Of a DNA stretch of 64,000 nucleotides, positions 13,285 through 30,197 are shown one piece after another; the first letter of the stretch is position 1, and every line of letters starts with the position of its first letter. The notes under the pieces were generated by a model. That model saw nothing but the letters and a program-made list of their open reading frames with translations, was not told where the DNA came from and made no database searches. The stretch is from Lachnospiraceae bacterium (GTDB lineage Bacteria > Bacillota > Clostridia > Lachnospirales > Lachnospiraceae): assembly GCA_014803415.1 (NCBI GenBank), contig JAAVBZ010000045.1, forward strand, positions 62,001-126,000, given 5' to 3'. Made by a program: the position numbers and the translations under genes.

Positions 13285-13332
13285 AAAAACAGCTGATGAT
13301 CAATTCTAAGCAAAAGATCATCAGCTGTTTTT
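13285..13332. terminator. Bidirectional terminator shared by convergent genes
   Basis: 17-bp perfect stem aaaaacagctgatgatc (13285-13301) / gatcatcagctgttttt (13316-13332). It ends in T-runs on both strands and overlaps the last codons of the minus-strand regulator. Confidence 0.85.
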
Positions 13333-13779: not shown

Positions 13780-13858
13780 TATTATACCTCACAATTTAAC
13801 TTGTTAATATTGCATAAAATGCGTAATCCCCCTTTTACAAATATAGTAAAAAAAGCAC

Positions 13859-13887
13859 TTGAAAATATATTGATAATAGCATATTAT
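13859..13887 (+). promoter_or_regulatory. Promoter of the secreted-protein gene
   Basis: TTGAAA (13859-13864), a 17-bp spacer and TATTAT (13882-13887), about 75 nt before the ATG. The intergenic region also holds a short dyad gcat-aaa-atgc near 13812, a possible site for the divergent Xre regulator. Confidence 0.55.
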
Positions 13888-13962
13888 ATTAAAAGAGCTA
13901 TTATAAATAGCAATTTGATGCAAATAAGTTTGCACCAAAAATATGATGAGAGGAGAAAAGAG

Positions 13963-14610
13963 ATGAAAGCAAGTATCATCAAAAAACTGATGGCTGGAGC
14001 GCTTACAGTTTCTTTAGTGATGGCTCCTGCATTTAGTGCATTTGCTACAACTATCACTAATGTTGAGTCTAAAGTTGAAGAAGCCATATCTTCCGGCACA
14101 TCAGGCGAAGTAACTACTGTTGCAGAAGTTCCTAACACCAGTTCTGTTGCAGGCGTGAAGACAACTGTTGGCGGCGTATATCTTGCAACAAAAGTTAACG
14201 GAAGTATTGTTTCAACCAGCGCAGCTGCTATAGCTGAAAGCTATGGTCTTGCAGGCAATGAAAAGGCTTATGCTAAGTTTTCTAACTTAGATGCAAAGAA
14301 GAGTCCTCTTGCTATGCAGGCTGTTGTTGCAGCAGCGGCATCACAGGGAGCTGAAGTAGGTCCTGTGCTCAATGTAGAATTGGGAAAGATGACAGCAGGC
14401 AAATACAGCTTACTGCCTTCTGACGGTGCAGCGATCAGATTGTCATTTGGCATTCCGAAAAGCTTTGTTCAGGCTGGCAAGACATATGCTGTAGTGGTTG
14501 TTCGCGCAGGCGGCGCAGTATCTATTTTACAGGATATTGATGAAAATCCTAATACTGTTACATTTGATACTACCGGTGGAGCAGGCGCATACGCTATCAT
14601 CAGATATTAA
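13963..14610 (+). CDS. Secreted protein of unknown function
   Basis: A 215-residue protein with a clear signal peptide (MKASIIKKLMAGALTVSLVM, cleavage likely after AFA). The mature part is Ala/Val/Ser/Thr-rich, compact and apparently all-beta, ending AGAYAIIRY. No catalytic motif, anchor or SH3/LysM pattern is visible. Codons are common, GC-richer ones than in the glycan genes, suggesting good expression. An upstream in-frame ATG at 13801 is rejected because aggag lies 8 nt before 13963. I do not recognise the family. It sits between an Xre regulator and a glycan locus, so a surface or matrix role is possible (inference). Confidence 0.75.
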   Translation: MKASIIKKLMAGALTVSLVMAPAFSAFATTITNVESKVEEAISSGTSGEVTTVAEVPNTSSVAGVKTTVGGVYLATKVNGSIVSTSAAAIAESYGLAGNEKAYAKFSNLDAKKSPLAMQAVVAAAASQGAEVGPVLNVELGKMTAGKYSLLPSDGAAIRLSFGIPKSFVQAGKTYAVVVVRAGGAVSILQDIDENPNTVTFDTTGGAGAYAIIRY

Positions 14611-14653
14611 TAAGAAATAGTTAATTTCATGTGAAGCGTAAATGTATTATGGG

Positions 14654-14677
14654 GAAGCTGCTGTAACAGGCAGCTTC
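14654..14677 (+). terminator. Hairpin between secreted protein and glycan locus
   Basis: gaagctgc / gcagcttc stem (14654-14661 with 14670-14677) extended by an inner ctg/cag pairing. No proper T-run follows, so it may be an attenuator or mRNA-stability hairpin rather than a terminator. Confidence 0.4.
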
Positions 14678-14695
14678 TCACATGAAAAGGGACGA

Positions 14696-16450
14696 ATGAA
14701 TTTGAAAAATAATTTGCAGAAGATCAAAAAAAATAATAGCTATTCTCTTTTTGTTTTGTTATTGATCTTTTGTATTTATCAATATGGGATTCAAAAAATA
14801 TGTGGCTTTACCCTGTATCCGGACGAATTCGGATACTGGGCCAGTGCAGCCAATGCCATAGGATATAACTGGTCAGAAGTAGCCTCAATGAGCTCTTATT
14901 ATTCTTTTGGCTATAGCCTTATTTTAATGCCAGTATTAAAAATTTTTGTAAATAGTGTTGCTGCATATAAAGCGGCAGTAACTGTCAATATGCTGTTAAT
15001 GTGTATCAGTGTTTTGCTGATGCAGAAAGTTATTTTTAAGTTATTTCCGGATATAGAAAAGGTAAAAAGTGTTTTTTTGAGCAGTATTGCAGTATTATAC
15101 CCTGCATGGATATTTTATATGCAGATGACAATGACAGAATCACTTTTATTTTTTCTGTTTGTGCTTATTAGCTATCTGTTTTTATATATGTTGGAAAAAC
15201 CGAGAGTACTGACGGCAGTAATGCTGGCTACAGCGCTTATATATATATATTGTGTACATATGCGAACAGTTGGTATGGTAATCGCCTGTATTTTAACATG
15301 TGTTCTTTGGGGAATAGTAAATGCCGGGGAAAAGAAGCGGGCAGGATATACGATTCTTTTTTTTATCACACTTGCTGTAGCAGGATGGATTGCATTAAAA
15401 ATGAAGAACAAAACTATATTGGAAGTTTTTGCTTATGCGGAAAAAGATGTTCTGGCAGGAAATGATTACGGCAGTCAGATTGCTAAGTTAAATAAGATTC
15501 TTACATTTCAGGGAATGATTCAGTTGCTCAAAGAGATGGTCGGCAAAATTTTCTATCTGGGTCTTTCCAGTTTCGGATTCTTTTATTGGGCTGCCATATG
15601 GTGTATGAAAGAGTGTACTAACTTACTTAGAAAAATAGTATACAGAGAAAGCCCTTTTCTTAAGCAATGGATGGCATTGTTTCTGCTTTTGTCTGCACTG
15701 GCTGAAATACTGATAAGCAGTATTTACATGTATGGAGCAGGCAATGTGGATTGCTTAATTTATGGAAGATATGATGAATTTGTTCTTCCTGTCATGATAG
15801 CAGTAGGGATTATTGCCATGGAGAAAAGCAGCTTCCTGTTTTTGGGCACAGTTTTTGCAGGTATCTTTTCAGGAGTGCTTTCTTTCATGCTTCTGAATGT
15901 AATTGAAATAAGAAATATGAAGGGGCTTCGCGGATATCATATCGCAGGACTTAGCTATCTGATAAAAGAAAATAGTATCGATATTTATTTTTTCTTTCGG
16001 GATACATGGATTCTATGCTTTGGAATCATGTTGATTGTGTGTTTCCTTGTATGGCTGAACAGGAGGTTAAAAAGAAATTCTTGGATTCTTGCAGGTATTA
16101 TGGTCATTGAAATAATAGCTGGATTGCAGATTAGCGAGCATTATGTCTATTCTGCCAATAATGTGAATTTTGAAAATCAGATTATTGTGGAGACGATTCT
16201 GGAAAATTGTAACGATAAAGACAAAATTGTTTATCTGGATGAGGGATATCCGGAGTTTATAGACTTTCTGCAGATGCAGCTTAGGGAAAAAAGTATATCA
16301 GTGGTGACAGAGAGAACTTTAAAAAGAGAAGCACTACCCGAATTTATAGTGACACATGTGGATACACAAATGGGTGATTTCCTGCAGGAAGTTTATGACA
16401 GTAAAGTAACAGCAAATACGTTAAATGTATATTTCAATAAAAATACATGA
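14696..16450 (+). CDS. Multi-spanning GT-C-like glycosyltransferase, paralogue 1
   Basis: About 584 residues with 10-12 hydrophobic segments. The first extracytoplasmic loop has a YPDEFGYW block carrying the Asp-Glu pair typical of GT-C enzymes, which use polyprenyl-phosphate sugars outside the membrane. A soluble C-terminal part follows (residues ~495-584). The adjacent GT2 gene, of the polyprenyl-phosphate sugar synthase type, would supply the donor (inference). It is homologous to the protein at 24236 (shared DE...AA...G-x-x-WS-x-V...SYY-x-FG pattern). The start is ATG 14696, or TTG 14702 with better SD spacing. Confidence 0.65.
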   Translation: MNLKNNLQKIKKNNSYSLFVLLLIFCIYQYGIQKICGFTLYPDEFGYWASAANAIGYNWSEVASMSSYYSFGYSLILMPVLKIFVNSVAAYKAAVTVNMLLMCISVLLMQKVIFKLFPDIEKVKSVFLSSIAVLYPAWIFYMQMTMTESLLFFLFVLISYLFLYMLEKPRVLTAVMLATALIYIYCVHMRTVGMVIACILTCVLWGIVNAGEKKRAGYTILFFITLAVAGWIALKMKNKTILEVFAYAEKDVLAGNDYGSQIAKLNKILTFQGMIQLLKEMVGKIFYLGLSSFGFFYWAAIWCMKECTNLLRKIVYRESPFLKQWMALFLLLSALAEILISSIYMYGAGNVDCLIYGRYDEFVLPVMIAVGIIAMEKSSFLFLGTVFAGIFSGVLSFMLLNVIEIRNMKGLRGYHIAGLSYLIKENSIDIYFFFRDTWILCFGIMLIVCFLVWLNRRLKRNSWILAGIMVIEIIAGLQISEHYVYSANNVNFENQIIVETILENCNDKDKIVYLDEGYPEFIDFLQMQLREKSISVVTERTLKREALPEFIVTHVDTQMGDFLQEVYDSKVTANTLNVYFNKNT

Positions 16451-16460
16451 GAGGTGGCTT

Positions 16461-17507
16461 ATGAAACTGATTATTCAGATTCCATGTTATAACGAGGCGG
16501 AAACGCTGGAGATAGCATTGAATGATCTTCCCAGACAACTTAAGGGAATCGATGAAATCGAATATCTGATTATCAATGATGGAAGCAGGGATAATACAGT
16601 GGAAGTTGCCAGGAAGTGGGGCGTTCATCATGTGGTGAATTTTAAACAGAACAAAGGACTGGCCAAAGGATTCATGGCTGGACTGGATGAGTGCCTTCGA
16701 AACGGAGCGGATATTATTGTAAATACCGATGCGGATAATCAATACTGTGCAGAGGATATTGTAGCTTTGATACAGCCAATACTGAATGGAAAAGCAGATA
16801 TGGTAATCGGTGCGAGACCCATCGATCAGACAGAGCATTTTTCTTTTATTAAGAAAAAACTTCAGCATTTCGGAAGCTGGGTAGTAAGAAAGGCTTCTAA
16901 TACAGACATACCGGATGCGCCCAGCGGATTCAGGGCTTTTTCAAGAGAAGCGGCTATGCGGATCAATGTGGTAAATGATTATACATATACACTGGAAACC
17001 ATCGTACAGGCAGGAAGAGAGAAGATTGCTATCACCAGCGTTCCTGTCCGAACCAATGCAGAACTTCGTCCTTCAAGACTGTTTAACAGCATTTTTGGGT
17101 ATGTGAAAAAGAGCATGCTGACAATCCTCCGGGCTTATATGATGTATAAACCTTTAAAATGCTTTGGGTATTTGTCAGTCGCACCAATAGCAGTAGGAAT
17201 TTTGATTGGTTTTCGATTTCTATATTATATGGGGATCGGGCAATCCAGTGGACATGTACAGTCGCTTATTTTGGCTTGTACTTTGATCATTATGGGATTT
17301 CTGACATTTATGATTGGTCTTGTAGCAGATGTGATCGCAGCTAACCGGAAACTTTTGCAGGATACTCAATACCATACGAGGAAGACGGAGTATGATGCGA
17401 TTTATATGCAGATGAAAATGGAGAAGGAAGCTGTGAAGACTTACAGGGTTTTAGCAGATTCAGAGAAAGAAAAGGAGAGCTTGGGAAGTGTTAGCATATC
17501 CTTATGA
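16461..17507 (+). CDS. GT2 glycosyltransferase, polyprenyl-phosphate sugar synthase type
   Basis: A 348-residue protein with a GT-A catalytic domain (residues ~1-215): IPCYNEAETLE at the N-terminus, LIINDGSRDNT and the metal-binding NTDADNQY near residue 91. Two membrane spans follow (~235-260 and ~270-300) plus a cytosolic tail. This matches DPM1/ArnC-like enzymes that load a sugar onto undecaprenyl phosphate. It begins 10 nt after the GT-C-like gene, with SD gaggtgg, so the two probably act together. A candidate terminator follows. Confidence 0.85.
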   Translation: MKLIIQIPCYNEAETLEIALNDLPRQLKGIDEIEYLIINDGSRDNTVEVARKWGVHHVVNFKQNKGLAKGFMAGLDECLRNGADIIVNTDADNQYCAEDIVALIQPILNGKADMVIGARPIDQTEHFSFIKKKLQHFGSWVVRKASNTDIPDAPSGFRAFSREAAMRINVVNDYTYTLETIVQAGREKIAITSVPVRTNAELRPSRLFNSIFGYVKKSMLTILRAYMMYKPLKCFGYLSVAPIAVGILIGFRFLYYMGIGQSSGHVQSLILACTLIIMGFLTFMIGLVADVIAANRKLLQDTQYHTRKTEYDAIYMQMKMEKEAVKTYRVLADSEKEKESLGSVSISL

Positions 17508-17521
17508 CTTAGATTTGAGAA

Positions 17522-17552
17522 CCTTGACAATTTCCTTGTGTCAGGATTTTTT
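17522..17552 (+). terminator. Candidate terminator inside the glycan locus
   Basis: tgaca (17525-17529) pairs with tgtca (17539-17543), extended by cc/gg with one bulged t, then a six-T run (17547-17552). It would separate the first two glycan genes from the rest. A lone TTGACA here has no matching -10. Confidence 0.4.
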
Positions 17553-17566
17553 ATGTGGAGATAAAA

Positions 17567-18733
17567 ATGAATCGAAAGAAGAAATTACTTGTAACAGCAT
17601 CAACATTTCCCAGATGGGAGGGAGATACTGAACCGAGATTTGTATTGGATCTTTGCTCACATATGGCGGATAAGTGTGATGTGACAGCGTTGGTTCCCGC
17701 TGCGTCAGGGGCAAAAGACAGAGAAATATTAGAAGGCGTTGAGGTGATAAGATACCATTATTTTCCGATTCATAAATGGGAAACTCTGTGTTATCCGGGA
17801 GCAATTGTTTCGAGGATAAAGGAAAAGAAAATTAGAGTATTATTAGTTCCTTTTTTATTACTTTCGTTGTATCTTCATTTATTTAAACTGTTACCACAAT
17901 TTGACATGGTACACGCCCACTGGCTGATTCCGCAGGGAATTGTACAGTCTTTTTTTAAGACACCTTATATTGTGACGGGGCATGGCGGGGATGTTACTTC
18001 TATGAATCAAGGAATACTACGGAAATTGAAAATAAGATGCCTTAAAAGAGCAGATCATGTAACGGTAGTGTCAGAGCATTTGAAAAATATAATACAGCAG
18101 ATGGTACCTGAAATACATCCGGATATTATTTCTATGGGAGTAGATGCAGGCAAGTTTGGCGGACAATATTATGTCTCCAATTATTTTGGTCAAGGGAATA
18201 GAAAGGTTGTTCTGTTTGTTGGAAGATTAGTAGAGATCAAAGGAGTGGAATATCTAATTGAAGCAATGAAAAGTGTGGATGCACTTCTGGTAATCGTGGG
18301 GGACGGTCCGCTTAAAGATAAATTGCAGTTAAAGGCAGATGGACTGGGAAAAAATGAAGTAAAGTTTCTTGGCGGAAAAACTCATGAAGAATTAAAAAAT
18401 ATTTTTGCATCTGCGGATGTGTTTGTTATTCCTTCAATTACTGCTGCGGATGGCGCTAAAGAAGGATTTGGCCTTGTAATACTTGAAGCAATGGCCTCTG
18501 GACTTCCTGTAATTGCAAGTAATTCCGGAGGGATACCGCAACTTATCCAAAATGGTATAAATGGTCTATTGTGTGAAGAAAAAGATATAGAGGCATTATC
18601 CATAAGTATCAATAAACTTTTAAACGATAAGCAATTGTCACAACAATTAGTTGACAATGGGAAAAGAACAATAAAGCAATATGATTATAGCTTGATTGCC
18701 AAAAAGTATGATGAAATTCTTAGAAACAAATGA
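17567..18733 (+). CDS. GT4-family glycosyltransferase
   Basis: A 388-residue GT-B enzyme. The N-domain ends near VTGHGGDVTSM and the C-domain has VVLFVGRLVEIKGVEYLIEA-type nucleotide-sugar binding. It carries the EX7E-type motif within KEGFGLVILEAMASGLPVI (residues ~290-310), typical of retaining GT4 enzymes. It transfers a hexose from a nucleotide sugar to a lipid-linked acceptor in the cytoplasm. A GTG at 17555 is in frame, but the ATG at 17567 with gtggag 7 nt upstream is better. It starts a run of closely spaced AT-rich genes. Confidence 0.88.
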   Translation: MNRKKKLLVTASTFPRWEGDTEPRFVLDLCSHMADKCDVTALVPAASGAKDREILEGVEVIRYHYFPIHKWETLCYPGAIVSRIKEKKIRVLLVPFLLLSLYLHLFKLLPQFDMVHAHWLIPQGIVQSFFKTPYIVTGHGGDVTSMNQGILRKLKIRCLKRADHVTVVSEHLKNIIQQMVPEIHPDIISMGVDAGKFGGQYYVSNYFGQGNRKVVLFVGRLVEIKGVEYLIEAMKSVDALLVIVGDGPLKDKLQLKADGLGKNEVKFLGGKTHEELKNIFASADVFVIPSITAADGAKEGFGLVILEAMASGLPVIASNSGGIPQLIQNGINGLLCEEKDIEALSISINKLLNDKQLSQQLVDNGKRTIKQYDYSLIAKKYDEILRNK

Positions 18734-18745
18734 GGAAATATGTAA

Positions 18746-19720
18746 ATGGACACAAAATTACTGATTAGTGTTATTATACCGGTTTACAATGTACATTTGT
18801 ATTTAAGACAATGCCTTGACAGTGTAATCTTACAGACTTATCAAAATCTTGAAATAATTTTAGTAGATGATGGTTCAACAGATGAGTCTGGGATAATATG
18901 TGATGAATATGCAAAAAAGGATATGCGCATAAAAGTCATCCATCAAGTAAATGAAGGTCAGGCATCAGCCAGAAATCATGGTTTGCAGTATGCACGTGGA
19001 GAATATATTACATATATAGATAGTGATGATTATGTAGCAAATAATTATATTGAATGTATGATAACCATGGCTGAAGAGTTTAAAGCCGATCTGGTACATT
19101 GCTGTATGGAAAAATTCTGGAAACATAGAAACGAAAAAGGTATATCGGAAAACTTTAATATAAAAGTTTATACAGCTTCAGAAGCCCTCAATGAATACTG
19201 TTATCAAAATAGGTTTATGCCATCGCCGTGTTGTAAACTTATTCATATTTCTTTAATTGAGAATATTAAATTCCCTGTTAATATGGGATATGAAGATGCG
19301 GCAACTATGTATAAGGTAATAGGAAATGCAAAAAAGATAGTGTTTATGCAGAAAGTGATGTATTACTATAGGCAGCACAATATGTCGACTATGCATGCAG
19401 GATTTTCAGATAAGAAGGTAGATAGAATTAGAGTCGCAGAGCAATTAAAGCAATATATTGATATTAATTTTCCTGAAAATAGTAGGGCAGCTAATACCAG
19501 ATATATCTTAGCAAATTTTCAACTTCTTATGGATCTGCCATATAGTAAAGAATATATAGAAATAAGAAAAGAAGTTGAAGAAAATATTAAGAATGTGCGG
19601 CGGAGAGTTATTTTTGATAATAAGTCAAAAATAAGTATTAAAATAATTGCAATGATCAGTTATTTAGGATCGCCAGTATTAATTTGTTTGGGGAAAATCT
19701 ATAAGAAAATGAATTACTGA
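18746..19720 (+). CDS. GT2-family glycosyltransferase
   Basis: A 324-residue GT-A enzyme with SVIIPVYNVHLYLRQCLDS at the N-terminus, ILVDDGSTDESG and the DXD-type YIDSDDYV near residue 92. The second half carries the GYEDAATMYKV block seen in EpsH/WfgD-like transferases. No membrane segment stands out apart from a hydrophobic C-terminus. It adds one sugar to the growing repeat unit; donor and linkage are not readable. It lies 12 nt after the GT4 gene and clearly uses AT-rich codons. Confidence 0.88.
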   Translation: MDTKLLISVIIPVYNVHLYLRQCLDSVILQTYQNLEIILVDDGSTDESGIICDEYAKKDMRIKVIHQVNEGQASARNHGLQYARGEYITYIDSDDYVANNYIECMITMAEEFKADLVHCCMEKFWKHRNEKGISENFNIKVYTASEALNEYCYQNRFMPSPCCKLIHISLIENIKFPVNMGYEDAATMYKVIGNAKKIVFMQKVMYYYRQHNMSTMHAGFSDKKVDRIRVAEQLKQYIDINFPENSRAANTRYILANFQLLMDLPYSKEYIEIRKEVEENIKNVRRRVIFDNKSKISIKIIAMISYLGSPVLICLGKIYKKMNY

Positions 19721-19738
19721 TCAAAAGGATAGATAGTA

Positions 19739-20791
19739 ATGAAAGTAAGTTTTATTATACCATTTTATAATTCAAAAGAATATCTGGAAGGCTGTATACG
19801 ATCATTAATGAGGATAAAAAATAGTGATATTGAATTTTTGTTTATCGATGATGGGTCAGAAGATAAAGGAAAAGAAATAATTCAAAAGTATCAAAAAATA
19901 GAAAAACGAATGAATGTCTATAGCCAAAATAATCAAGGAGTATCTGCTGCAAGGAACTTTGGAATACAAAAGGCAAAGGGTGAGTGGATTTCGTTCATAG
20001 ATAGTGATGATACAATTGAAGCGGAAGCATACGATATGGCAATAGACAGTCTTAGAGATGATATGGATTTATTTATCATGGGATTTGATATTGTCAGTGA
20101 GAATAAACAAATTCAAAAAAAAAAGGAAGAAATTAGTATATATTCTTACGATAAATCAGATTTACAGAAAATCCGTTATGGCATCATTGATAGAGATTTT
20201 AAGTTATACAAACCGTATAGATATAGAGAAACACACATTGATTTTGCGGGTCCCTGTGGAAAATTCTATCGTCATCGAATAATTGAGAAATACAAAATTT
20301 TTTTCCCTGTAGGTATAACAATAGGTGAGGACAGAATATTTAATTATAAATATTGTGGACTGATTTCAAAGTGCTTTTATAGTAATAATATTGCATATCA
20401 TTATTTTCAGAATGAAGAATCAGCCATGCATCAATTTAAGGAGGGGAAAGGAAGGGATGTAATATGTTTGGTAAATGAATTTCAAAAAACAATCGAAGAT
20501 GATTTAATATCTAAAAAGTGTTTATGGCAATTAGGAATACGATATTACCTGGTTTCACTTAAAATGGAATTTTGTAATTTAAATAATCAGAAATGTTATC
20601 GTGTTAGAAGAAAAGAAGCTTTAGATGTAAGGAAGATGGATCTGGTTAATCAATGTTTCCATTATGGGAGTATATGGAAGATAAGGATAGAAGCAATTCC
20701 CCTTGCGCTTTTTGCAAAATATAAAATGTTTTTTATATGTGATATGATGCTCAAATTGAAAGAGTTTTTTCATATAACGGCTTCAATTTAA
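19739..20791 (+). CDS. GT2-family glycosyltransferase
   Basis: A 350-residue GT-A enzyme: VSFIIPFYNSKEYLEGCI, FLFIDDGSEDKG and the FIDSDDTIE metal-binding site near residue 88. The GPCGKFYRHRIIEKY and GEDRIFNYKY blocks match other capsule and teichoic-type GT2 enzymes. It is paralogous to the previous gene but clearly diverged. It probably adds a further sugar to the repeat unit. The gene follows after 18 nt with a weak aaagg SD. Confidence 0.87.
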   Translation: MKVSFIIPFYNSKEYLEGCIRSLMRIKNSDIEFLFIDDGSEDKGKEIIQKYQKIEKRMNVYSQNNQGVSAARNFGIQKAKGEWISFIDSDDTIEAEAYDMAIDSLRDDMDLFIMGFDIVSENKQIQKKKEEISIYSYDKSDLQKIRYGIIDRDFKLYKPYRYRETHIDFAGPCGKFYRHRIIEKYKIFFPVGITIGEDRIFNYKYCGLISKCFYSNNIAYHYFQNEESAMHQFKEGKGRDVICLVNEFQKTIEDDLISKKCLWQLGIRYYLVSLKMEFCNLNNQKCYRVRRKEALDVRKMDLVNQCFHYGSIWKIRIEAIPLALFAKYKMFFICDMMLKLKEFFHITASI

Positions 20792-20844
20792 TACCGATCG
20801 AAAACTTAATAATTGAATCAAAAAGTGAAAGGTGGATTATTAAT

Positions 20845-21984
20845 ATGAAAGTTATAGCATTTTATCTTCCTCAATTTCATGTTATTAAAGAAAATAATGA
20901 ATGGTGGGGAGATGGATTTACAGATTGGGTGAATGTAAAAAGAGCCATTAAGTATAACGAAAAACAATATCAGCCAAGAGTCCCATTAAATAAAAATTAT
21001 TATGATTTGTCAAATATTGATGTGATGAAATGGCAAGCAGAGATGGCTAAAAAATATGGAATATATGGATTTTGTATGTATCATTACTGGTTTAATGGGC
21101 ATAAGCTTCTGGAAAAGCCAGTAGAGAATTATTTGAAACATACAGAGATAGATTTGCCTTTTTGTCTGTGCTGGGCTAATGAAAATTGGACAAACCAGTG
21201 GGGACCGGGCGCTAATCAAAAGATGTTGATAGAGCAAGTATATGGAGATGAAAAAGATTGGAAAGAGCATTTTGACTATATGTTACCGTTTTTCCGTGAT
21301 AAACGGTATATAAAAGAAAATGGAAAACCGCTACTCGTAATATATAGACCAGATTTAATTGATAGATTAGATGAAATGTTGGAAAAGATGGATTCTTGGG
21401 CAAAAGATAATGGACTTAATGGTCTTTGCTATGCATATCAGAATGCGATAAGTACCTTGTTTAATTATAAAAATGGCAGAGACAGAAAATTTGATATACA
21501 GATTGAATATCAACCAGGAGCTGCTTTTGAATGGCAATGGAATAAAATAAGTATGTGGGCAATTAAGATAAAACGCGAGTTTATTAATACATTAGGAAAA
21601 TTATTACATACTAAAAAATTACCCACAACCCTTCATGCTAAAAAACTTGAAAAAAGAAATTACGATAAAACTTGGAAATGTATTTTAGAACACATACCTG
21701 TGTCAGAAAAGTGTGTACCAGGTGCATTTGTTGATTGGGATAATACCCCAAGAAAACAGAAGAGAGGTTCTTTTTATGAAGGAGCATCACCTGAGAAATT
21801 TGCATATTATTTTGATAAGCTGATCAAAAGAACAAAGGAAGTTTACCATAAGGATATGATTTTTATATTTGCATGGAATGAGTGGGCTGAAGGTGGATAT
21901 CTCGAACCAGATGAAAAGAATGAATACAGCTATTTGGCTGCAGTATATCAAGGTTTGAAAAAAAATAATGAACTTCCAAGGTGA
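20845..21984 (+). CDS. WbsX-family protein (GH99-like domain), copy 1
   Basis: A 379-residue soluble protein of the WbsX type, found in many O-antigen and capsule loci. It opens with the family block KVIAFYLPQFHVIKENNEWW, followed by GFTDWVNV, YGFCMYHYWFNG, LCWANENWT and, near the C-terminus, FAWNEWAEGGYLEPD. The fold is TIM-barrel, related to GH99. Whether members act as glycosyltransferases or hydrolases is unsettled; the conserved Glu/Asp residues suggest catalysis. A homologous copy follows immediately. Confidence 0.82.
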   Translation: MKVIAFYLPQFHVIKENNEWWGDGFTDWVNVKRAIKYNEKQYQPRVPLNKNYYDLSNIDVMKWQAEMAKKYGIYGFCMYHYWFNGHKLLEKPVENYLKHTEIDLPFCLCWANENWTNQWGPGANQKMLIEQVYGDEKDWKEHFDYMLPFFRDKRYIKENGKPLLVIYRPDLIDRLDEMLEKMDSWAKDNGLNGLCYAYQNAISTLFNYKNGRDRKFDIQIEYQPGAAFEWQWNKISMWAIKIKREFINTLGKLLHTKKLPTTLHAKKLEKRNYDKTWKCILEHIPVSEKCVPGAFVDWDNTPRKQKRGSFYEGASPEKFAYYFDKLIKRTKEVYHKDMIFIFAWNEWAEGGYLEPDEKNEYSYLAAVYQGLKKNNELPR

Positions 21985-21988
21985 TTAT

Positions 21989-23083
21989 ATGAATACAAAA
22001 ATAATTGCATTTTATTTACCTCAATATCATGAAATCAAAGAAAATAGTGAATGGTGGGGAAAAGGCTTTACAGAGTGGACTAATGTGAAAAAGGCGAAAC
22101 CATTATATAAAAGTCATTATCAACCTAAAGTACCGTATGAAAATAATTATTATTGCTTATTAGATTCTAAGGTTCAGGAGTGGCAGGCTAAAATAGCAAT
22201 AGAAAATGGTATTTTTGGATTTTGTTATTATCACTATTGGTTTAATGGAAAACTTTTATTAGAAAAGCCAATGGAAAATATGCTTGCTAATGAAAAGATA
22301 CACATTAATTTTTGTATATCATGGGCAAATGAGCCATGGACCAGAACATGGACAGGAGAAAATCAAGATGTATTGATGCCGCAGCAATATGGTGGCATAG
22401 AGGATTGGGAACAACATTTACAATATTTATTGCCCTTTTTTAAAGACGAAAGATATATTCTAAATGAAAACAAACCAATGTTACTGATTTACAGAGCTGA
22501 GAATATTCCGCAATGCCAGGAGATGATCGCATATTGGGATAGAAGGTTAAAGGAATACGGTTTTACGGGTATTTGTGTTCTGGAAACTTTGACAGGGTGG
22601 CAGAAGGAAAAAAAGGTAAAAAACAGCGCTGGAGTTGTCGCAATGGAACCAATGCATTGCATGGCAGAAGATTTGTCTATATTGTGTAGATTGAGACATC
22701 AACTAATAAAAAAAATGAAATTACAGAGATTTGGAATGCTAGATGAATATAATTATGATTATATTTGGAGAAAAATACTTAATAAAAAATTTACTCAATA
22801 TAAAGTATCTTACTATGGTGGATTTATGAACTGGGATAATACAGCAAGAAAAGGGAAAGATGCTATTTTATTACGAGGATTTTCATTAAAAAAATATAAA
22901 TATTATATTCGAAAAATGTACGAAAAGTGTAATGCTGAAAAGAAAGAATATTTGTTTTTTAATGCATGGAATGAATGGAGTGAAGGAACTTATCTTGAGC
23001 CAGATGATCGATATGGATATGAATACTTAATAGGGATTAAAGAAATCGTAAAAAGTAATGGAGAAAAGGAAGATGGGCAATAA
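21989..23083 (+). CDS. WbsX-family protein (GH99-like domain), copy 2
   Basis: A 364-residue homologue of the preceding gene with the same blocks: IIAFYLPQYHEIKENSEWW, GFTEWTNV, FGFCYYHYWFNG, ISWANEPWT and FNAWNEWSEGTYLEPD. The in-frame ATG at 21968 lies inside copy 1; the ATG at 21989 has aaggtga 5 nt upstream and matches copy 1's N-terminus. The middle region (residues ~195-300) is the least conserved, suggesting a different substrate from copy 1. Its last codons overlap the next gene, indicating translational coupling. Confidence 0.82.
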   Translation: MNTKIIAFYLPQYHEIKENSEWWGKGFTEWTNVKKAKPLYKSHYQPKVPYENNYYCLLDSKVQEWQAKIAIENGIFGFCYYHYWFNGKLLLEKPMENMLANEKIHINFCISWANEPWTRTWTGENQDVLMPQQYGGIEDWEQHLQYLLPFFKDERYILNENKPMLLIYRAENIPQCQEMIAYWDRRLKEYGFTGICVLETLTGWQKEKKVKNSAGVVAMEPMHCMAEDLSILCRLRHQLIKKMKLQRFGMLDEYNYDYIWRKILNKKFTQYKVSYYGGFMNWDNTARKGKDAILLRGFSLKKYKYYIRKMYEKCNAEKKEYLFFNAWNEWSEGTYLEPDDRYGYEYLIGIKEIVKSNGEKEDGQ

Positions 23084-24239
23084 ATATATTTTTGCAACGC
23101 ATATGGGAATTGGAAATCGAGGGTGCGAAGCTTTAACAAAATCGCTATGTTTATTGCTTGATTTACCACGAGAAAAGACACAGATATATTCTGAACATTA
23201 TAAGGAAGATAGAAAAAGTGATCTTCAAAGGTATGGGAAGATCATGAAGACAGATCGATGGAGTAAATGCTTTTTTCTGAAGAAAATATTCTACAAAATG
23301 CAAGCAGCTATTAAGGGAGATATACAGGCAATTGAATTAATGAAATATGACTTAAGTGATATAAATTCTGAATCAATAGTGTTCATAACAGGCGGCGACT
23401 TATATTGCTATGAAGGAACTATTAAATTAATGAGATTTATACATGATTATTCCATCAAACAGTCTGCAAAGACATTATTGATTGGTTGTTCCATAGATGA
23501 AAAATTTTTGATGCCGAAAGTAATAGAAGATTTGAAACGTTATGACTTAATAACTGTTCGGGAAAGTATGACATATGATAATTTGATAAAGCTGGGAATT
23601 AGAAAAAATGTATATTTAATACCAGACAGTGCGTTTACGTTATCTTCTCAGGCGGCGGGTGTATTAATGCAGTCAAATGATAATATAGTCGGAATTAATA
23701 TCAGTAAATTTATAAATGGAGGAGAAAAAGACGATACACTGTTCTTTCGAAATATTGAGAAGGTAATAAATTATATTTTAGATAATACAAAGTATGATGT
23801 CATGTTAATCCCTCATGTATTTTGGAAAGATCAGGATGATAGAAGACTGATTAGAATATTGAAAAGAAAATTTCCTACAAAAAGAGTATTTATATTTAAT
23901 AGTGAAAAGTTAAATTATTGTCAAATTAGATATGTGATTTCACAATGCAGATTTTTCATGGGAGCAAGAACTCATTCAGTTATTTCAGCATATTCGGAGT
24001 GTGTACCGGCCATTGCTTTAGGATATTCGGTTAAATCTATTGGAATTGCAAAAGATTTAGGTATGAGTATTCAGACAGTTATTGATTGTCGAAATTTGAA
24101 ACATGAAGATGAATTGTTAAAAGCTTTCCTTTATTTAGAGAATAATGAAGTTGAAATAAAAAATATACTAAAAGAAAAATTACCTTCTTATATAGAACAG
24201 GCTCATAGTTTAAAAAAAATAATAGAAAAAAATAAATGA
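23073..24239 (+). CDS. Polysaccharide pyruvyltransferase family protein
   Basis: A 388-residue protein of the pyruvyltransferase family (CsaB/WcaK-like, GT-B-like fold). Family features are THMGIGNRGCEALTKSL near the start, ITGGDLYCYEG, LIGCSIDEKF, DLITVRESMTYDNL, LIPDSAF, IPHVFW and MGARTHSVISAY near residue 305. Members attach pyruvate from PEP as a ketal on a sugar, giving the polymer negative charge, though some have other roles. The start is ATG 23073, 9 nt after ggag, overlapping the preceding gene by 11 nt. It ends in an ATGA overlap with the next gene. Confidence 0.82.
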   Translation: MGNKYIFATHMGIGNRGCEALTKSLCLLLDLPREKTQIYSEHYKEDRKSDLQRYGKIMKTDRWSKCFFLKKIFYKMQAAIKGDIQAIELMKYDLSDINSESIVFITGGDLYCYEGTIKLMRFIHDYSIKQSAKTLLIGCSIDEKFLMPKVIEDLKRYDLITVRESMTYDNLIKLGIRKNVYLIPDSAFTLSSQAAGVLMQSNDNIVGINISKFINGGEKDDTLFFRNIEKVINYILDNTKYDVMLIPHVFWKDQDDRRLIRILKRKFPTKRVFIFNSEKLNYCQIRYVISQCRFFMGARTHSVISAYSECVPAIALGYSVKSIGIAKDLGMSIQTVIDCRNLKHEDELLKAFLYLENNEVEIKNILKEKLPSYIEQAHSLKKIIEKNK

Positions 24240-26056
24240 AAAATATTAATTATAATTATCGAAAAATTAAATATGCGATCATTGTATTTTTAATTGCTTT
24301 TGTTCCAAGAATGATATGTACTTTTCTCATGGATCCTGTGAAAGTGCTTATGGATGAAATATGTACATTAAATGGTGCTGCATATTTTGCAGGACTTGAC
24401 TGGAGTAATGTAGTTGGAGAAGGGAGTTATTATGGATTTGGATTCTATGCATTAGTATCCTTTATATTTAAAATTACAGATAATCCATATATCATATATC
24501 ATTTAATATTATTGGTTTTAGCTGTAGTACAAAGCTTAACGTCAGTATTTTGTTTTAATATATTACTGAAATTTTTCAATATAAAAGAATATAGATGGTG
24601 CGTAATTGTATCAGTAATATGCTCATATATGGTTGTAAGTAGAGCAATAGCTTTTGTAAATGAACATCCATTAATACTTATTACATGGATTCTTGTATGG
24701 CTGATTCTTTTATTATGCAAATATCAAAGTGATAAAAGGAAAAAAGCAATTTATACATTATTGTTAATATTATTTATGACATATTCATTGCTAATTCATA
24801 CCAGGGCAATCACATATTGGATAGCATTTTTACTTTTAGTAATTTTGTATGGATTGGTTTACAGGAAATGTTTAATTTCTATTCCGGTTTTTACAGGTAT
24901 AACAATTGCTTTAGTACCGTTAGGACAGTATTTCATTAAAAATTACCAGAGCAGTATATGGGATAGTACGAAAGCAATTGTCAATGCAAGTATTGATATT
25001 TCGGCAACAAGTCAGGTCTTAAAGGCAGAAAATTTGAAAGCTATATTAGATATTGTCTTAGGGGAAATTAATACAATAGGGGTATATACTGGCGGAATTT
25101 CATATATTGCAATTGTCGTCTGTATTTATATATTGTTCATATGTTTGAAGGAAAAGAAGAATAATACTGAAGAAAACAATAAGTTGTTTGCTGTTATTAT
25201 ATTTTGTAATGCATGTGTAGGAATTAGTATAGCGGGGATGGTAACTTCATGGGGTAACGGAGTTATTTATGGATTAGCTAAAAATATTACATATGATTAT
25301 TATTCATATAAAGCATTGACTTATATCAGATATTTTGGACCTTACTTGGGACCACTATTAATGATAACACTTATATTTGCAAAGAAAAATAGAAATGAAA
25401 TATGTTGTTTGTGTTTTTGGGCAATTTTAGCCATGATTCCAATACAATTCTATTGGTTAGAAAATATTATCCCTATTATCACTCAAAATTCAACAACAAA
25501 CTCAGCATTTATGCTTTTTACATTATGGAATGAGAATAAAGAATTAGAAAGCGGTGTTTATTATGCAGGAATCATGTTTATGGTTTTATTTTTAATTATG
25601 TATAAATGGTGCCTTAGTTGTAAAAAGGAAGTGGTGTCATTGATGCTGATAGGCTGTATTTTGCTTTCACAATATATATATGGGGTATATGCACTGGATA
25701 CGGTTTGGGCAAAAGAAAATTTTATTCAGGCAGACAGCGGATATGAATGGATAAAAAAACTGGAAAAAAATGTTAAATTACCTGAAAAAATATATGTGAA
25801 AGATAACGTAGCCGTTTCGCACCATAAATCATATTATATTTATCAATTTATGTTGAATCGATATACTGTTGTTCCTGGTGAGCCAGGAGAAGAAGTAGAG
25901 GAAGCAATCCTGTTTGAGAATACGGATATAAATATTCCTATGTTACAAAACATGGAATTTAAATATTTACAATTAGATGAAAATGAATATGTATTTATAA
26001 AAGGCGATGAGCTGTTAAGAGAATTACAAAATATAGGTATAAATTTAGAAGGATAG
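24236..26056 (+). CDS. Multi-spanning GT-C-like membrane protein, paralogue 2
   Basis: A 606-residue membrane protein with about 12 hydrophobic segments and a soluble C-terminal part (residues ~500-606). The first outer loop contains LMDEICTLNGAAYFAGLDWS, aligning with YPDEFGYWASAANAIGYNWS of the protein at 14696; the Asp-Glu pair is the expected GT-C catalytic site. It probably transfers a polyprenyl-phosphate-linked sugar onto the glycan outside the membrane, or acts as polymerase (inference). The start codon overlaps the previous stop (ATGA). Confidence 0.65.
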   Translation: MKNINYNYRKIKYAIIVFLIAFVPRMICTFLMDPVKVLMDEICTLNGAAYFAGLDWSNVVGEGSYYGFGFYALVSFIFKITDNPYIIYHLILLVLAVVQSLTSVFCFNILLKFFNIKEYRWCVIVSVICSYMVVSRAIAFVNEHPLILITWILVWLILLLCKYQSDKRKKAIYTLLLILFMTYSLLIHTRAITYWIAFLLLVILYGLVYRKCLISIPVFTGITIALVPLGQYFIKNYQSSIWDSTKAIVNASIDISATSQVLKAENLKAILDIVLGEINTIGVYTGGISYIAIVVCIYILFICLKEKKNNTEENNKLFAVIIFCNACVGISIAGMVTSWGNGVIYGLAKNITYDYYSYKALTYIRYFGPYLGPLLMITLIFAKKNRNEICCLCFWAILAMIPIQFYWLENIIPIITQNSTTNSAFMLFTLWNENKELESGVYYAGIMFMVLFLIMYKWCLSCKKEVVSLMLIGCILLSQYIYGVYALDTVWAKENFIQADSGYEWIKKLEKNVKLPEKIYVKDNVAVSHHKSYYIYQFMLNRYTVVPGEPGEEVEEAILFENTDINIPMLQNMEFKYLQLDENEYVFIKGDELLRELQNIGINLEG

Positions 26057-26064
26057 TGGTTGAA

Positions 26065-27780
26065 ATGTATTCAGTAATTAGAAATGTTAATATCTTAGTT
26101 TCACTTTTAAAAAAGTTTGATATAAGGAATATTGTAGTATCTCCTGGATCACGTAATATTCCAATTGCTGTTTCAATAGAGAAAGATGATTTTTTTAAAT
26201 GCTATTCTATTGTTGATGAGAGAAGTGCAGCTTTTTTTGGAATAGGATTAATACAAAAATTAAAGCAACCGGTGGCCATTTGCTGTACATCAGGAACGGC
26301 TGTATGTAATTATCTTTCTGCAGTTACAGAAGCATATTATCAGAAGCTGCCGCTTATCGTAATTACTGCAGATCGAAATATATATTATTTGAATCAATTA
26401 GAGGATCAAGATATACCGCAAATGAGTTATTTTGTGGAAGTTACTAAGAAATCGGTATGTCTTCCTATTGTTAACGATGAAAAAAGTGAATGGTATTGTT
26501 GGAGATTGGTTAATGAGGCATTATTGGGATTAGATCATCATGGAACAGGGCCGGTACATATTAATGTTCCGATTGAGATTGGGCCGGAAGAAATGGATTT
26601 TAGTTTAAAAGAATTGCCTGAACTAAATTGTATTACCAGGCTAACAGTAGAGTCAAAGAGAGAGGAATGGAAAAGGTATGCTGAAAGATTAAAGAAGACT
26701 CGGAAAATATTAATAATTTATGGACAAAGCTTTAGGGCTTCCGCAGAATTGTCCAGTATCATTGGACAGTTTTTTAAAAAATATAATTGTGTCATAGCAA
26801 CAGAATTGATTTCTAACTTGTGGAGTGATGGAATAGTAAATCTACACAGAATATTTCAATTTCACTCAGGAGATTTTTTAGATCAGGCAGAGCCGGAAAT
26901 TGTTATTACCTTAGGTGGTAATTATGTCTCTGATATAAAAGGAAAATTGAAAAGTAATAAATGGAATTTTGAACATTGGTTAGTATGTGAGGAGGGTTTG
27001 ATAGCGGATCCATATAGGAAGCTGACAAATGTTTTTGAATGTAGTCCGCAAGTTTTCTTTAGTAATATGACAGGATTAGGAGGAAATGATATTTTAGAGC
27101 ATTCCTATTATGACCTCTGGAAAGAAAATGAAAAACAATTTGTAGAACCGTTTCGTGAATATAATGATGTATATGTAGTTAGTGAGTTTATGAGAAAAAT
27201 TCCCGATCATGCATTACTTCATGTAGCAAACAGTACAAGCATTAGAATAGCGGAGCTATTTTCTGTAAAAGAAACAGTAGATGTGTTTTGTAACCGGGGA
27301 ACAAATGGAATCGACGGTTCATTGTCTGCTTTTATAGGAGCAGCATCAGTATCAGATGAATTATGTTTTTTGCTGATAGGTGATTTAAGCTTCTTTTATG
27401 ACATGAATGGATTATGGAATCGGTACATAGGAAAAAATATCAGAATTTTATTAAATAACAATAGTGGAGCTGGAATATTTCATTACATTCGTTCTGAAAA
27501 AATCATTCCTTCGCTGGATAATTTAGTAGCTGCAGAACATGATGCTATGGCCAGGAAATGGGTAGAGTCAAGAGGATTTTTGTATTTATCTGCATATAAT
27601 ATGAAGGAATTTGAAGATAATATTACGAAGTTTTTTGATGCAAATTTGGATTCACCTGTCTTTTTTGAAGTCTTTACTGATAAGAAAACAGATGCAGAAG
27701 CATTAAAAAGATATTATGAGAGTAATAAAACAGCAATGAAGGGAATGAAAAAAATAGTAGGTAAGGTATTTAAAATATAG
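26065..27780 (+). CDS. MenD-like thiamine-diphosphate enzyme in a glycan locus
   Basis: A 571-residue ThDP enzyme most like MenD (SEPHCHC synthase). Visible are SPGSR (residues ~26-30), the activating Glu in VDERS (E52), TSGTAV, TADR (R104), the ThDP/Mg site GDLS...NNN (D440, ~464-466), NSTSIR (R394) and NRGTNGIDG (R411). From knowledge of E. coli MenD, the two last Arg contact 2-oxoglutarate and are kept. Positions linked to isochorismate differ: N117 appears as Asp, and the Lys292/Arg293 region reads VSDIK. So the donor may be 2-oxoglutarate with another acceptor, perhaps a keto-sugar (inference). No other men genes are visible in the window. Confidence 0.8.
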   Translation: MYSVIRNVNILVSLLKKFDIRNIVVSPGSRNIPIAVSIEKDDFFKCYSIVDERSAAFFGIGLIQKLKQPVAICCTSGTAVCNYLSAVTEAYYQKLPLIVITADRNIYYLNQLEDQDIPQMSYFVEVTKKSVCLPIVNDEKSEWYCWRLVNEALLGLDHHGTGPVHINVPIEIGPEEMDFSLKELPELNCITRLTVESKREEWKRYAERLKKTRKILIIYGQSFRASAELSSIIGQFFKKYNCVIATELISNLWSDGIVNLHRIFQFHSGDFLDQAEPEIVITLGGNYVSDIKGKLKSNKWNFEHWLVCEEGLIADPYRKLTNVFECSPQVFFSNMTGLGGNDILEHSYYDLWKENEKQFVEPFREYNDVYVVSEFMRKIPDHALLHVANSTSIRIAELFSVKETVDVFCNRGTNGIDGSLSAFIGAASVSDELCFLLIGDLSFFYDMNGLWNRYIGKNIRILLNNNSGAGIFHYIRSEKIIPSLDNLVAAEHDAMARKWVESRGFLYLSAYNMKEFEDNITKFFDANLDSPVFFEVFTDKKTDAEALKRYYESNKTAMKGMKKIVGKVFKI

Positions 27781-27816
27781 CATTGCGTTCAGCAAAATAG
27801 ATTGGGAGGAATACAG

Positions 27817-29343
27817 TTGAATATAGACAGGAAGAAAAATGCGATTAGAAATATAGTCTGGGGCATTTTAAATAAAGTAATACTTGTTCTTTTTCCGTTT
27901 ATTACAAGAACGATCCTGATACAAAAATTAGGGACAGAGTATTTGGGAGTAAGCAGTCTTTTTTCATCAGTATTACAAGTATTGAATCTTGCAGAACTTG
28001 GATTTGGAAATGCATTAGTGTTTAGTATGTATAAACCGATTGCTGAAAATGACGGACAGATGATATGCGCTTTGCTAAATACATATCGAAAAGTTTACCA
28101 TGCAATAGGAGTAATGATTTTGATGTTGGGATTACTAATATTGCCTTTTGTTAAATACATAATTAAAGGAGATTACCCAGCTGAATTAAATATTTATATT
28201 ATTTATCTAATTTACTTATTAAATTCAGCAATCAGTTATTTTGCTTTTGTATATCGATCATCATTACTATTAGCGCATAATAGGAATGATATTATTAGTA
28301 AAATATCCTCCAGTATAATGATATTTCAGTATCTTGTGCAGGCTGCAATTTTATATTTTGTTTCTGATTATTACTTATACATTGCAGTGTTGCCGATTTT
28401 TACAATGGCATTAAATATTGCCCAGGCATTATGTGCAGTAAAAATGTACCCTGAGTATGTATGCAGAGGGAATATCAGCCGTGAGATGCGTGCTGATATT
28501 AAGAAGAGAGTATATGGACTTGCTTCCTACAAAATATATGGTGTGGTATTTTCTTCCGTAGATTCAATTGTTATTTCAATGTTCTTGGGGTTGGCTCCGC
28601 TTGGAATATATAATAACTATTATTATATCATTACATCTGTTGAAGGATTCCTTGTTATATTAATTAATTCGCTGACAGCAGGAATTGGAAATAGTCTGGT
28701 TCTTGAGACAAAAGGAAAAAATTATCATGATTATAATCAATTAGTATTCTTAAATACATGGATAGTAGGGTGGTGTGCCATCTGTATGTCAGTTTTATTC
28801 CAACCCTTTATTGAAATATGGATAGGGAAGGATTATTGGATGCCGTATAATACTGTATGTTTATTGATAATTATGTTTTATGCATCAAGAGCAACTACTA
28901 TTTCGTACTTATATAAAGAAGCTTTGGGATTATGGTGGGAGGATCGAATACGGCCTTTGATATCAACTATTGTTAATTTAACAATAAATATTTTATTAGT
29001 ACAAAAAATAGGATTAAATGGAGTTATAATCTCAACGGTGGTATGTACTGTATTTATCAATGTTCCATGGGGAACGCATATTTTATTTAAAAATTATTTT
29101 AAGGAAGGCGAAAAAACCTATTATATTAATATAATTAAATACGCAATGATTACAATTCTAATTGGAATTTTTACATATTATATTTCTTCAATATTTAAGA
29201 ATAGTGGCTTTGAAGGTATAACGATAAGAGCATTGATATGTTTAATTATACCTAATCTATGCTTTGTTTTAGTATATCATAGGAAGAATGAATTTAAAGA
29301 GACTTGTGTATTAATTAAGTCGATAATGAAAAGATGTTTATAG
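27817..29343 (+). CDS. Wzx-type polysaccharide flippase
   Basis: A 508-residue MOP-superfamily exporter with about 12-14 membrane segments. The N-terminus (NIVWGILNKVILVLFPFITR) and TEYLGVSSLFSSVLQVLNLAELGFG are characteristic of Wzx-like proteins in Firmicutes capsule and EPS loci. It would flip the undecaprenyl-pyrophosphate-linked repeat unit to the outer face. The TTG start at 27817 is fixed by ggagga 6 nt upstream. It is the transport step of the locus; no Wzz/Wze-type chain-length genes are seen. Confidence 0.87.
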   Translation: MNIDRKKNAIRNIVWGILNKVILVLFPFITRTILIQKLGTEYLGVSSLFSSVLQVLNLAELGFGNALVFSMYKPIAENDGQMICALLNTYRKVYHAIGVMILMLGLLILPFVKYIIKGDYPAELNIYIIYLIYLLNSAISYFAFVYRSSLLLAHNRNDIISKISSSIMIFQYLVQAAILYFVSDYYLYIAVLPIFTMALNIAQALCAVKMYPEYVCRGNISREMRADIKKRVYGLASYKIYGVVFSSVDSIVISMFLGLAPLGIYNNYYYIITSVEGFLVILINSLTAGIGNSLVLETKGKNYHDYNQLVFLNTWIVGWCAICMSVLFQPFIEIWIGKDYWMPYNTVCLLIIMFYASRATTISYLYKEALGLWWEDRIRPLISTIVNLTINILLVQKIGLNGVIISTVVCTVFINVPWGTHILFKNYFKEGEKTYYINIIKYAMITILIGIFTYYISSIFKNSGFEGITIRALICLIIPNLCFVLVYHRKNEFKETCVLIKSIMKRCL

Positions 29344-29354
29344 GGAGAATATTT

Positions 29355-30197
29355 ATGGCGTTAAAGAAAAAAATAAATGCATACCTGACATTTAATAAGA
29401 AAAGAGAAAATCAATATGTACTTAAAATAGATGAAGGGAAACGATTTCAGGGAAAGATTGTATTGGTGACAGGAGGATCAGGTGCCATAGGAAGAGCAGC
29501 TTGTATCAAATTTGCTATGGAAGGAGCAATGGTATATGTCGCAGGAACAAATCAAATAAAAATTAATGAGACATTGGGGCTCATAAGAATCCAGGGAGGA
29601 AGTGCTGCCGGAGTCGTTATACATGTAGAAGACTTTGGGAACATTAAGAAAGTTATTGAGCATATTTTGGAAAAAGAAGGACAGATTGATATATTAGTAA
29701 ATTGTGCAGGGGGATCAGCAAGAGAAAAAGGAACGGCATTAGATCTGCAGGAAGTCGACATTATTGAAAACGTAATCAATACTAATTTATTGGGAACAAT
29801 TTATTGTTGCAAATGTGTAATACCAATAATGAAGGAAAAAAGAAGTGGGAAAATTATTAATATATCTTCATTACTCGGTATACAAGGGAAAAAATATCAT
29901 ACTGAATATTCTGCAGCTAAGGCAGGAATTATTGCAGTAACCAAATCCCTTGCAATGGAGTTAGGTGAATATGGAATAAATGTAAACTGTGTGATTCCGG
30001 GGCTCGTACAAAGGGAGGAGTTTGAAGCGAAGGATGCATATAATTATAGTAGAACAAATTATTTGGATAAAATATGCAAACCAACGGATGTTGCAAATCT
30101 TATTTGTTTTTTGGCATCTGATGAATCAAGTTTTATAACTGGAAGCAATTATGTGATTGATGGTGGAAGAAATTTGGGGTGTAAAGGCGATACTTGA
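29355..30197 (+). CDS. Short-chain dehydrogenase/reductase
   Basis: A 280-residue classical SDR. After an unusual 30-residue N-terminal extension come the NAD(P) motif TGGSGAIG (about residue 41), NCAGG (about 119), catalytic Ser in NISSLLG and YSAAK (Tyr and Lys about residues 183 and 187), ending FITGSNYVIDGG. It probably reduces a keto group or oxidises an alcohol in an unusual sugar. As the last gene of the AT-rich glycan run, it is a natural partner of the MenD-like enzyme two genes upstream. ATG 29355 follows aggga. Confidence 0.85.
   Translation: MALKKKINAYLTFNKKRENQYVLKIDEGKRFQGKIVLVTGGSGAIGRAACIKFAMEGAMVYVAGTNQIKINETLGLIRIQGGSAAGVVIHVEDFGNIKKVIEHILEKEGQIDILVNCAGGSAREKGTALDLQEVDIIENVINTNLLGTIYCCKCVIPIMKEKRSGKIINISSLLGIQGKKYHTEYSAAKAGIIAVTKSLAMELGEYGINVNCVIPGLVQREEFEAKDAYNYSRTNYLDKICKPTDVANLICFLASDESSFITGSNYVIDGGRNLGCKGDT

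Follow-up and report, generated by a model that had tools for sequence, protein, structure and literature searches.

The locus described here raises the question of what a MenD-type, thiamine diphosphate (ThDP)-dependent enzyme does among genes for surface glycan assembly. It lies in a 64,000-nt window, positions 62,001-126,000 of contig JAAVBZ010000045.1, from the draft genome of a Lachnospiraceae bacterium (4.26 Mb, 97% complete, 9% contaminated). An earlier note on this DNA had reported a full-length MenD-type enzyme among glycosyltransferases, with a flippase and a short-chain dehydrogenase/reductase (SDR) just after it, and the open reading frames (ORFs) and profile matches confirm this arrangement. 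The note took the MenD-like enzyme and the SDR as the functional unit, acting on a sugar nucleotide, and overlooked the most constant partner of such enzymes, a polysaccharide pyruvyltransferase of family PF04230 (23058-24239). We propose, with a probability of roughly 0.5, that the MenD-like protein is a membrane-bound 2-oxoglutarate-dependent carbon-carbon ligase and that it and this pyruvyltransferase jointly modify a lipid-linked glycan.

The association with PF04230 was assessed across related loci. The GTDB contig scan retained 80 of 397 confirmed loci. Thirty-seven glycan loci were hand-picked out of L021-L034 and L036-L082, leaving out the reference MenD loci, L028 (truncated, beside a chorismate-binding gene), L029 and L069 (3-kb contig), the duplicates L036, L040 and L074, and L041, whose MenD-like frame was lost in the ORF filter. 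A PF04230 gene was present in 34 of the 37 (32 by profile within 7 kb, plus a fusion in L027 and L064 by Pfam). Within 7 kb of the MenD-like gene, a flippase was found in 29 loci, an SDR in 22, and any reductase in 28 (SDR, epimerase-like or Gfo/Idh; one at 4.7 kb); menB or menF was near it in none of the 37. Among the eight loci representing class I, the branch of the family that includes the window protein (see below), just four had a reductase nearby. PF04230 is therefore the most constant partner, and a reductase is common but not constant; these counts do not support the pairing of MenD-like enzyme and SDR as the functional unit.

Flippase loci within the same genomes provided a comparison, using 13 of 17 match genomes (G079, G163, G182 and G241 were dropped) and control flippase genes scoring at least 100 bits and lying more than 20 kb from the MenD-like gene. 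PF04230 occurred within 5 kb in 12 of 13 MenD-like loci versus 4 of 22 other flippase loci (Fisher, 4.2e-5), and within 10 kb in 12 of 13 versus 7 of 22 (p 0.001). In Ruminococcus albus 7, where the neighborhood is annotated, genes for PF04230, a flippase, a MenD-like protein (class II) and an epimerase-type reductase stand in a row. In L027 (G222), residues 185-463 of a single 1093-aa ORF match PF04230, and its MenD-like half starts near residue 550. The phosphoenolpyruvate (PEP)-binding residues described for CsaB, R148, H308 and K328 (PMC10435577), are kept in 34 of 34 partners, counting Lys or Arg at 328. CsaB R306, the Arg of the RxH motif, is kept in six, including the partner in the window, and absent in the other 28. 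The window equivalents of CsaB R148, R306, H308 and K328 are R168, R304, H306 and K326. The characterized family members CsaB and WcfO make pyruvate ketals, and the accessible parts of these sources mention no ThDP partner.

We then considered which substrates the MenD-like protein might use. Among solved structures it comes closest to MenDs, in sequence as well as in fold, and the AlphaFold2 model has a mean predicted local distance difference test score (pLDDT) of 90.2. Residue numbers here count from GTG 26056; subtracting 3 gives numbering from ATG 26065. The alignment comprised 20 reference MenDs, 9 class I proteins (counting L063), 28 class II proteins and L027, making 38 glycan-type proteins in all. 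The reference status of the 20 rests on men neighbors for 11, on species for E. coli, and on assumption for 8 Bacteroidota rows. The features of the window protein that bear on its function, all on the + strand, are:

26152-26154, +, Arg33, isochorismate-side residue, kept (B. subtilis Arg32 mutant and alignment)
26218-26220, +, catalytic Glu55 of the ThDP site (Glu in 20/20 reference MenDs and 38/38 glycan-type proteins)
26374-26376, +, Arg107, isochorismate-side residue, kept (B. subtilis Arg106 mutant and alignment)
26932-26934, +, Asp293, opposite MenD Lys292 (alignment)
27232-27297, +, Ser393, Arg397 and Arg414, predicted 2-oxoglutarate carboxylate clamp (alignment; roles from papers)
27682-27777, +, C-terminal basic helix, about residues 543-574, net +5 in the last 30 residues (AlphaFold2 model with helix at 543-573, last nine residues of low confidence)

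Ser393, Arg397 and Arg414 align with E. coli MenD Ser391, Arg395 and Arg413, bearing out the claim that two 2-oxoglutarate-binding arginines (R394 and R411, counted from 26065) are kept. Ser408, Arg412 and Arg431 grip the 2-oxoglutarate carboxylate in Listeria MenD (PMC12312563), and in B. subtilis MenD Arg409 and Arg428 serve 2-oxoglutarate, Arg32 and Arg106 isochorismate (PMC2914249). In the 20 reference MenDs the clamp Ser and second Arg are invariant, and the first Arg is present in 14 and replaced by Tyr in six. All 9 class I proteins have the full clamp; of the 28 class II proteins, every one has the first Arg, one has the Ser and none has the second Arg. Tyr stands at the E. coli Arg395 position in the Bacteroidota MenDs of L048, L050, L052, L055, L058 and L060, which lie beside menF (by profile). 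On the acceptor side, Lys292 is Lys in 20/20 reference MenDs and in 0/38 glycan-type proteins, three of which (class II) have Arg. Arg33 persists in all 9 class I proteins and in 19 of the 28 class II proteins, Arg107 in 8 and 15, respectively; Gln118 is universal, like the catalytic Glu. The differences that the earlier note had listed around the isochorismate pocket, Asp at position 117 and V-S-D-I-K at the Lys292 region, are present as described, but the Asn117 position varies among reference MenDs (Asn in 1, Pro in 2 and Gly in 17 of 20), so D117 says little. Class I, with the window protein, should still use 2-oxoglutarate at an acceptor site that has been retuned with two Arg retained; class II has probably changed its donor and perhaps its chemistry. 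The structure prediction and E. coli MenD alignment that the note had suggested thus yield a MenD fold with the clamp kept and the acceptor side altered.

At the Ile474 position, the residue is Ile in 19/19 reference MenDs that have one there and Ile, Leu or Met in class I. Glu occupies it in 27/27 class II proteins with a residue there; the site adjoins the ThDP thiazolium in MenD, and this substitution hints at a class II chemistry unlike that of class I.

The C-terminal helix points to where the enzyme may work. Net charge over the last 30 residues averaged +6.1 in 34 glycan MenD-like proteins, versus -0.35 in 17 reference MenDs; for 414 other proteins encoded in these loci the mean was +1.3 (p 1e-13). 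The SDR N-termini were likewise basic, averaging +5.0 (20 proteins) versus +1.5 (394 others; p 5e-9), and the SDR cofactor motif sits at about residue 36-51, save in L025 (26), with three of the 20 not scored. These tails suggest that both enzymes work at the membrane. A structural neighbor of the window model, E. coli pyruvate oxidase (3EY9/3EYA), is by entry title a peripheral membrane enzyme, differing in chemistry and subfamily from the MenD-like enzyme. Characterized PF04230 pyruvyltransferases act on undecaprenyl-diphosphate-linked precursors (PMC6801904). Taken together with the basic tails, this means that the MenD-like enzyme, SDR and pyruvyltransferase may meet at a lipid-linked glycan.

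In the sequence of events that we envisage, the MenD-like enzyme would decarboxylate 2-oxoglutarate on ThDP, as MenD does and as the clamp predicts, and would join the resulting succinyl-type carbanion, of four carbons, to an acceptor carried by a lipid-linked glycan at the membrane, as the tails and the known PF04230 enzymes suggest. The ligase would work together with the PEP-dependent pyruvyltransferase of the locus; the SDR, where present, would probably then reduce the resulting ketone, and the flippase would export the product. The branched or C-extended acid sugar of the earlier proposal may still be made, while a branched nucleotide sugar is not specifically supported: no keto-sugar-forming dehydratase or other supply of keto-sugar nucleotides was recognized among the ORFs of 14642-30197, in which no dedicated search was made, and the tails suggest the membrane, perhaps a lipid-linked glycan. 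If the proposal holds, ThDP carboligation is coupled to pyruvyl transfer in a single cassette, with records from an archaeon and several bacterial phyla; it would give acidic surface groups for which we found no report, and new enzymes for forming carbon-carbon bonds on glycans. Among the listings of our open-library searches there was likewise no report of this association.

Could the protein nonetheless be an ordinary or moonlighting MenD, joining 2-oxoglutarate to isochorismate and stranded in a glycan locus? It scores 283.2 bits against the curated equivalog cut-off of 244.2 for menD (TIGR00173), and it resembles MenD in its ThDP fold, catalytic Glu, Ser-Arg-Arg clamp, Arg33, Arg107 and Gln118, and I474 and F475, so that most MenD active-site residues are kept. 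It differs in having no Lys292 and no match to PF16582 (the MenD central domain), and in its basic C-terminal helix, separate branch and glycan neighbors. No PF16582 match was found in its own genome either, while 7 of 14 control genomes have one, 6 above the cut-off. As the earlier note had stated, no menaquinone genes were recognized by eye among the listed window ORFs (menB, menF, menE, menC or menH). Genome-wide searches covered menA and menB: menA had no match, and the best menB match reached 129 bits against a cut-off of 342.7.

Among 392 genomes of the order, 17 had a MenD match at E 1e-40 or better. Fourteen of these matches are glycan-type (151-292 bits), of which eight exceed the menD cut-off (four class I, three class II and L027). 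A menB over its cut-off was found in 0 of 13 glycan-type genomes tested, versus 2 of 2 genomes carrying a 425-bit MenD, in one of which (L035) the neighborhood was inspected. In a phylum sample of 398 genomes, the 30 best matches, ranked by score alone without regard to neighborhoods, reached 408-532 bits, against 284 for the window protein. The remaining matches were two at 165 and 192 bits and four genomes of one family in which very long ORFs match piecewise (267-273 bits for each piece, and 432.6 when one is taken together with its neighbors). We consider it very unlikely that the window enzyme is a menaquinone MenD, in agreement with the note's view that it serves glycan assembly. Because glycan-type proteins can exceed the menD cut-off, a menD annotation may be given to genomes that lack menaquinone.

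A phylogeny of homologues beside flippase and glycosyltransferase genes, proposed in the note as a check, places the window protein with the glycan-locus family and outside the reference-MenD branch. In a tree of 58 proteins, the 20 reference MenDs grouped with support of 100/100, class I including the window protein (8 rows) with 98/88, and class II (28 rows) with 99/95; L027 and L063 stood apart. In an earlier tree of smaller sets, where two acetolactate synthases served as outgroup, the corresponding values were 84/99, 94/84 and 99/97. Grouping the window protein with Bacteroidales MenDs was rejected in the approximately unbiased (AU) test (p-AU 2.4e-5), as was so grouping all of class I (2.8e-5). 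The glycan types join on the Bacteroidales side of MenD in the unrooted 58-protein tree, whereas in the outgroup-rooted tree L027 is outermost and reference MenD lies inside; as the two trees disagree on the root, either of MenD and the glycan type may have given rise to the other. Family members occur sporadically in records of Bacillota, Bacteroidota, a Saccharibacteria metagenome-assembled genome (MAG), a Lactobacillus and a Methanocorpusculum (an archaeon); Lactobacillus equicursoris is, like R. albus 7, a carrier. This distribution suggests horizontal spread, and MAG contamination could account for single cases. Loci L083-L115 were counted as reference-type MenD without inspection of their neighbors. 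Five phage-collection matches (H16-H20), "Bacteriophage sp." records from human feces, encode MenD relatives of 31-41% identity and are perhaps bacterial DNA in virome contigs.

Several observations weigh against a membrane-bound ligase acting with the pyruvyltransferase. To our knowledge, no activity has been described for any family member. A basic tail does not prove that a protein binds the membrane, and the C-terminal one is missing in L025 (-5) and L062 (0). No PF04230 gene was found in three of the 37 loci (L034, L063 on a truncated contig, and L072), a membrane-protein gene separates it from the MenD-like gene in the window itself, and the fusion was seen once and could be an assembly error. 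The window family served as query in gathering the loci, which are themselves related, so the tests overstate independence. The AU test does not reject a placement of the window protein as the branch nearest all reference MenDs (p 0.39), and R33, R107, Q118, I474 and F475, with isochorismate or cofactor roles in MenD, are all kept in it. The B. subtilis MenD Lys299Ala mutation raises the isochorismate Km only about 8-fold (PMC2914249); with this mild effect and the kept isochorismate-side residues, residues alone do not exclude isochorismate.

A bolder and distinctly less probable variant would run a Stetter reaction on the glycan. PF04230 would move an enolpyruvyl (or pyruvyl) group from PEP onto one of the sugars in the lipid-linked glycan. 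The MenD-like enzyme would then attach the succinyl carbanion derived from 2-oxoglutarate to this unsaturated carboxylate, and the SDR would reduce the new ketone, so that the surface polymer would bear a branched dicarboxylic acid ether; in class II the reaction would be alike but start from a different 2-oxo acid. MenD's own acceptor is an unsaturated carboxylate bearing an enolpyruvyl ether. The variant fits this MenD chemistry, the fusion, the kept Arg33 and Arg107 and the optional reductase. Set against it, halting at an enol ether would depart from the PF04230 enzymes described, which make ketals. If true, MenD chemistry would have a new role and glycans a new kind of modification.

Among alternatives to the proposed ligase, the best to survive, though improbable on present evidence, follows YerE. 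Here the SDR would oxidize a sugar hydroxyl, or a keto-sugar would be supplied, and the MenD-like enzyme would add its acyl group to the ketone. The product would be a C-branched acidic sugar, made either at the nucleotide-sugar stage or on the lipid-linked glycan, and the pyruvyltransferase would decorate the glycan independently. In the YerE pathway a reductase acts after YerE. This scheme would suit the 28 of 37 loci that have an SDR or another reductase nearby, and the ThDP enzymes YerE, ErwE and JanthE likewise belong to surface-polysaccharide loci, YerE and ErwE making branched surface sugars (PMC12247030). They probably form another ThDP subfamily, and the available part of that source describes no pyruvyltransferase link for them; this 2025 review lists ketone-branching ThDP enzymes of YerE-like, alpha-ketoacid dehydrogenase and transketolase types, with 'MenD' not mentioned in that part. 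Less credible still is the supply of a small acid, in which 2-oxoglutarate would become succinic semialdehyde and, through the SDR, 4-hydroxybutyrate for attachment to the glycan: the intact clamp and SDR motifs would allow it, yet no ligase or coenzyme A enzyme was recognized by eye in the operon, class II has the same kinds of neighbors without the clamp, and membrane tails and fusion would be needless. The stranded MenD is the least plausible of all, its profile score and unrejected nearest-branch placement being countered by the menA and menB results, the separate branch with Lys292 lost, and the low score beside the phylum's best.

The longer ORFs taken as genes from 14642 to 30197 all lie on the + strand, as follows:

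14642-17507, +, locus head, with a membrane protein (by eye) and a family 2 glycosyltransferase (GT2) with sub-cut-off AglJ similarity, common to L027 and L122
17555-20791, +, three glycosyltransferases (GT4, GT2, GT2; profile search)
20845-21984, +, WbsX-type glycosyltransferase (PF14307, 405 bits)
21968-23083, +, WbsX-type glycosyltransferase (PF14307, 402 bits)
23058-24239, +, polysaccharide pyruvyltransferase PF04230 (96.6 bits, cut-off 25.3)
24236-26056, +, large membrane protein (by eye; no Pfam family matched)
26065-27780, +, MenD-like ThDP enzyme, class I of the glycan-locus family (TIGR00173, nearest solved structures, AlphaFold2)
27802-29343, +, oligosaccharide flippase, Wzx-like (Polysacc_synt, 25.2 bits, under its cut-off of 28.2)
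29334-30197, +, SDR with N-terminal basic extension (motifs TGGSGAIG, Ser, YSAAK)

The glycan operon thus holds two large membrane proteins (by eye), a GT2, a GT4, two further GT2s, two WbsX proteins, PF04230, the MenD-like enzyme, the flippase and the SDR, the last matching the classical SDR pattern TGxxxGxG, Ser, YxxxK. The MenD-like frame is intact and could start at GTG 26056 (574 aa) or ATG 26065 (571 aa), ending at 27780; because relatives begin with MYS or MYT, 26065 is the likelier start.

Other genes recur near the cassette. An apparent MenD paralogue without the middle domain lies near the MenD-like gene in 8 of 37 loci. This 280-295 aa protein (L026:8636-9523 and L034:7118-7963, and beside the MenD-like genes of L053, L054, L056, L059, L061, L064 and L029) has a weak TPP_enzyme_N match (two scanned), and, by eye, a degenerate PP half and no middle domain; some class II enzymes may have it as a partner subunit without catalytic activity. 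Iron-sulfur proteins were noted in L044 and L047 (Cys-rich starts by eye, upstream of the pyruvyltransferase) and L062:11739-13148 (DUF362 with Fer4). A cytidylyltransferase-Gfo/Idh fusion, perhaps marking a second unusual activation pathway, and a class V aminotransferase lie near the MenD-like cassette at L025:5409-6755 and L116:1334-2608, with LicD annotated in L116. The locus head is shared by the window (13321-17507), L027:246-4216 and L122:1007-4659 and comprises a small secreted protein, a large membrane protein and a GT2, with a regulator in the window and L027. Downstream of it the glycan genes are exchanged, with the MenD-like gene in two of the three loci, and the small secreted protein could be a glycan carrier.

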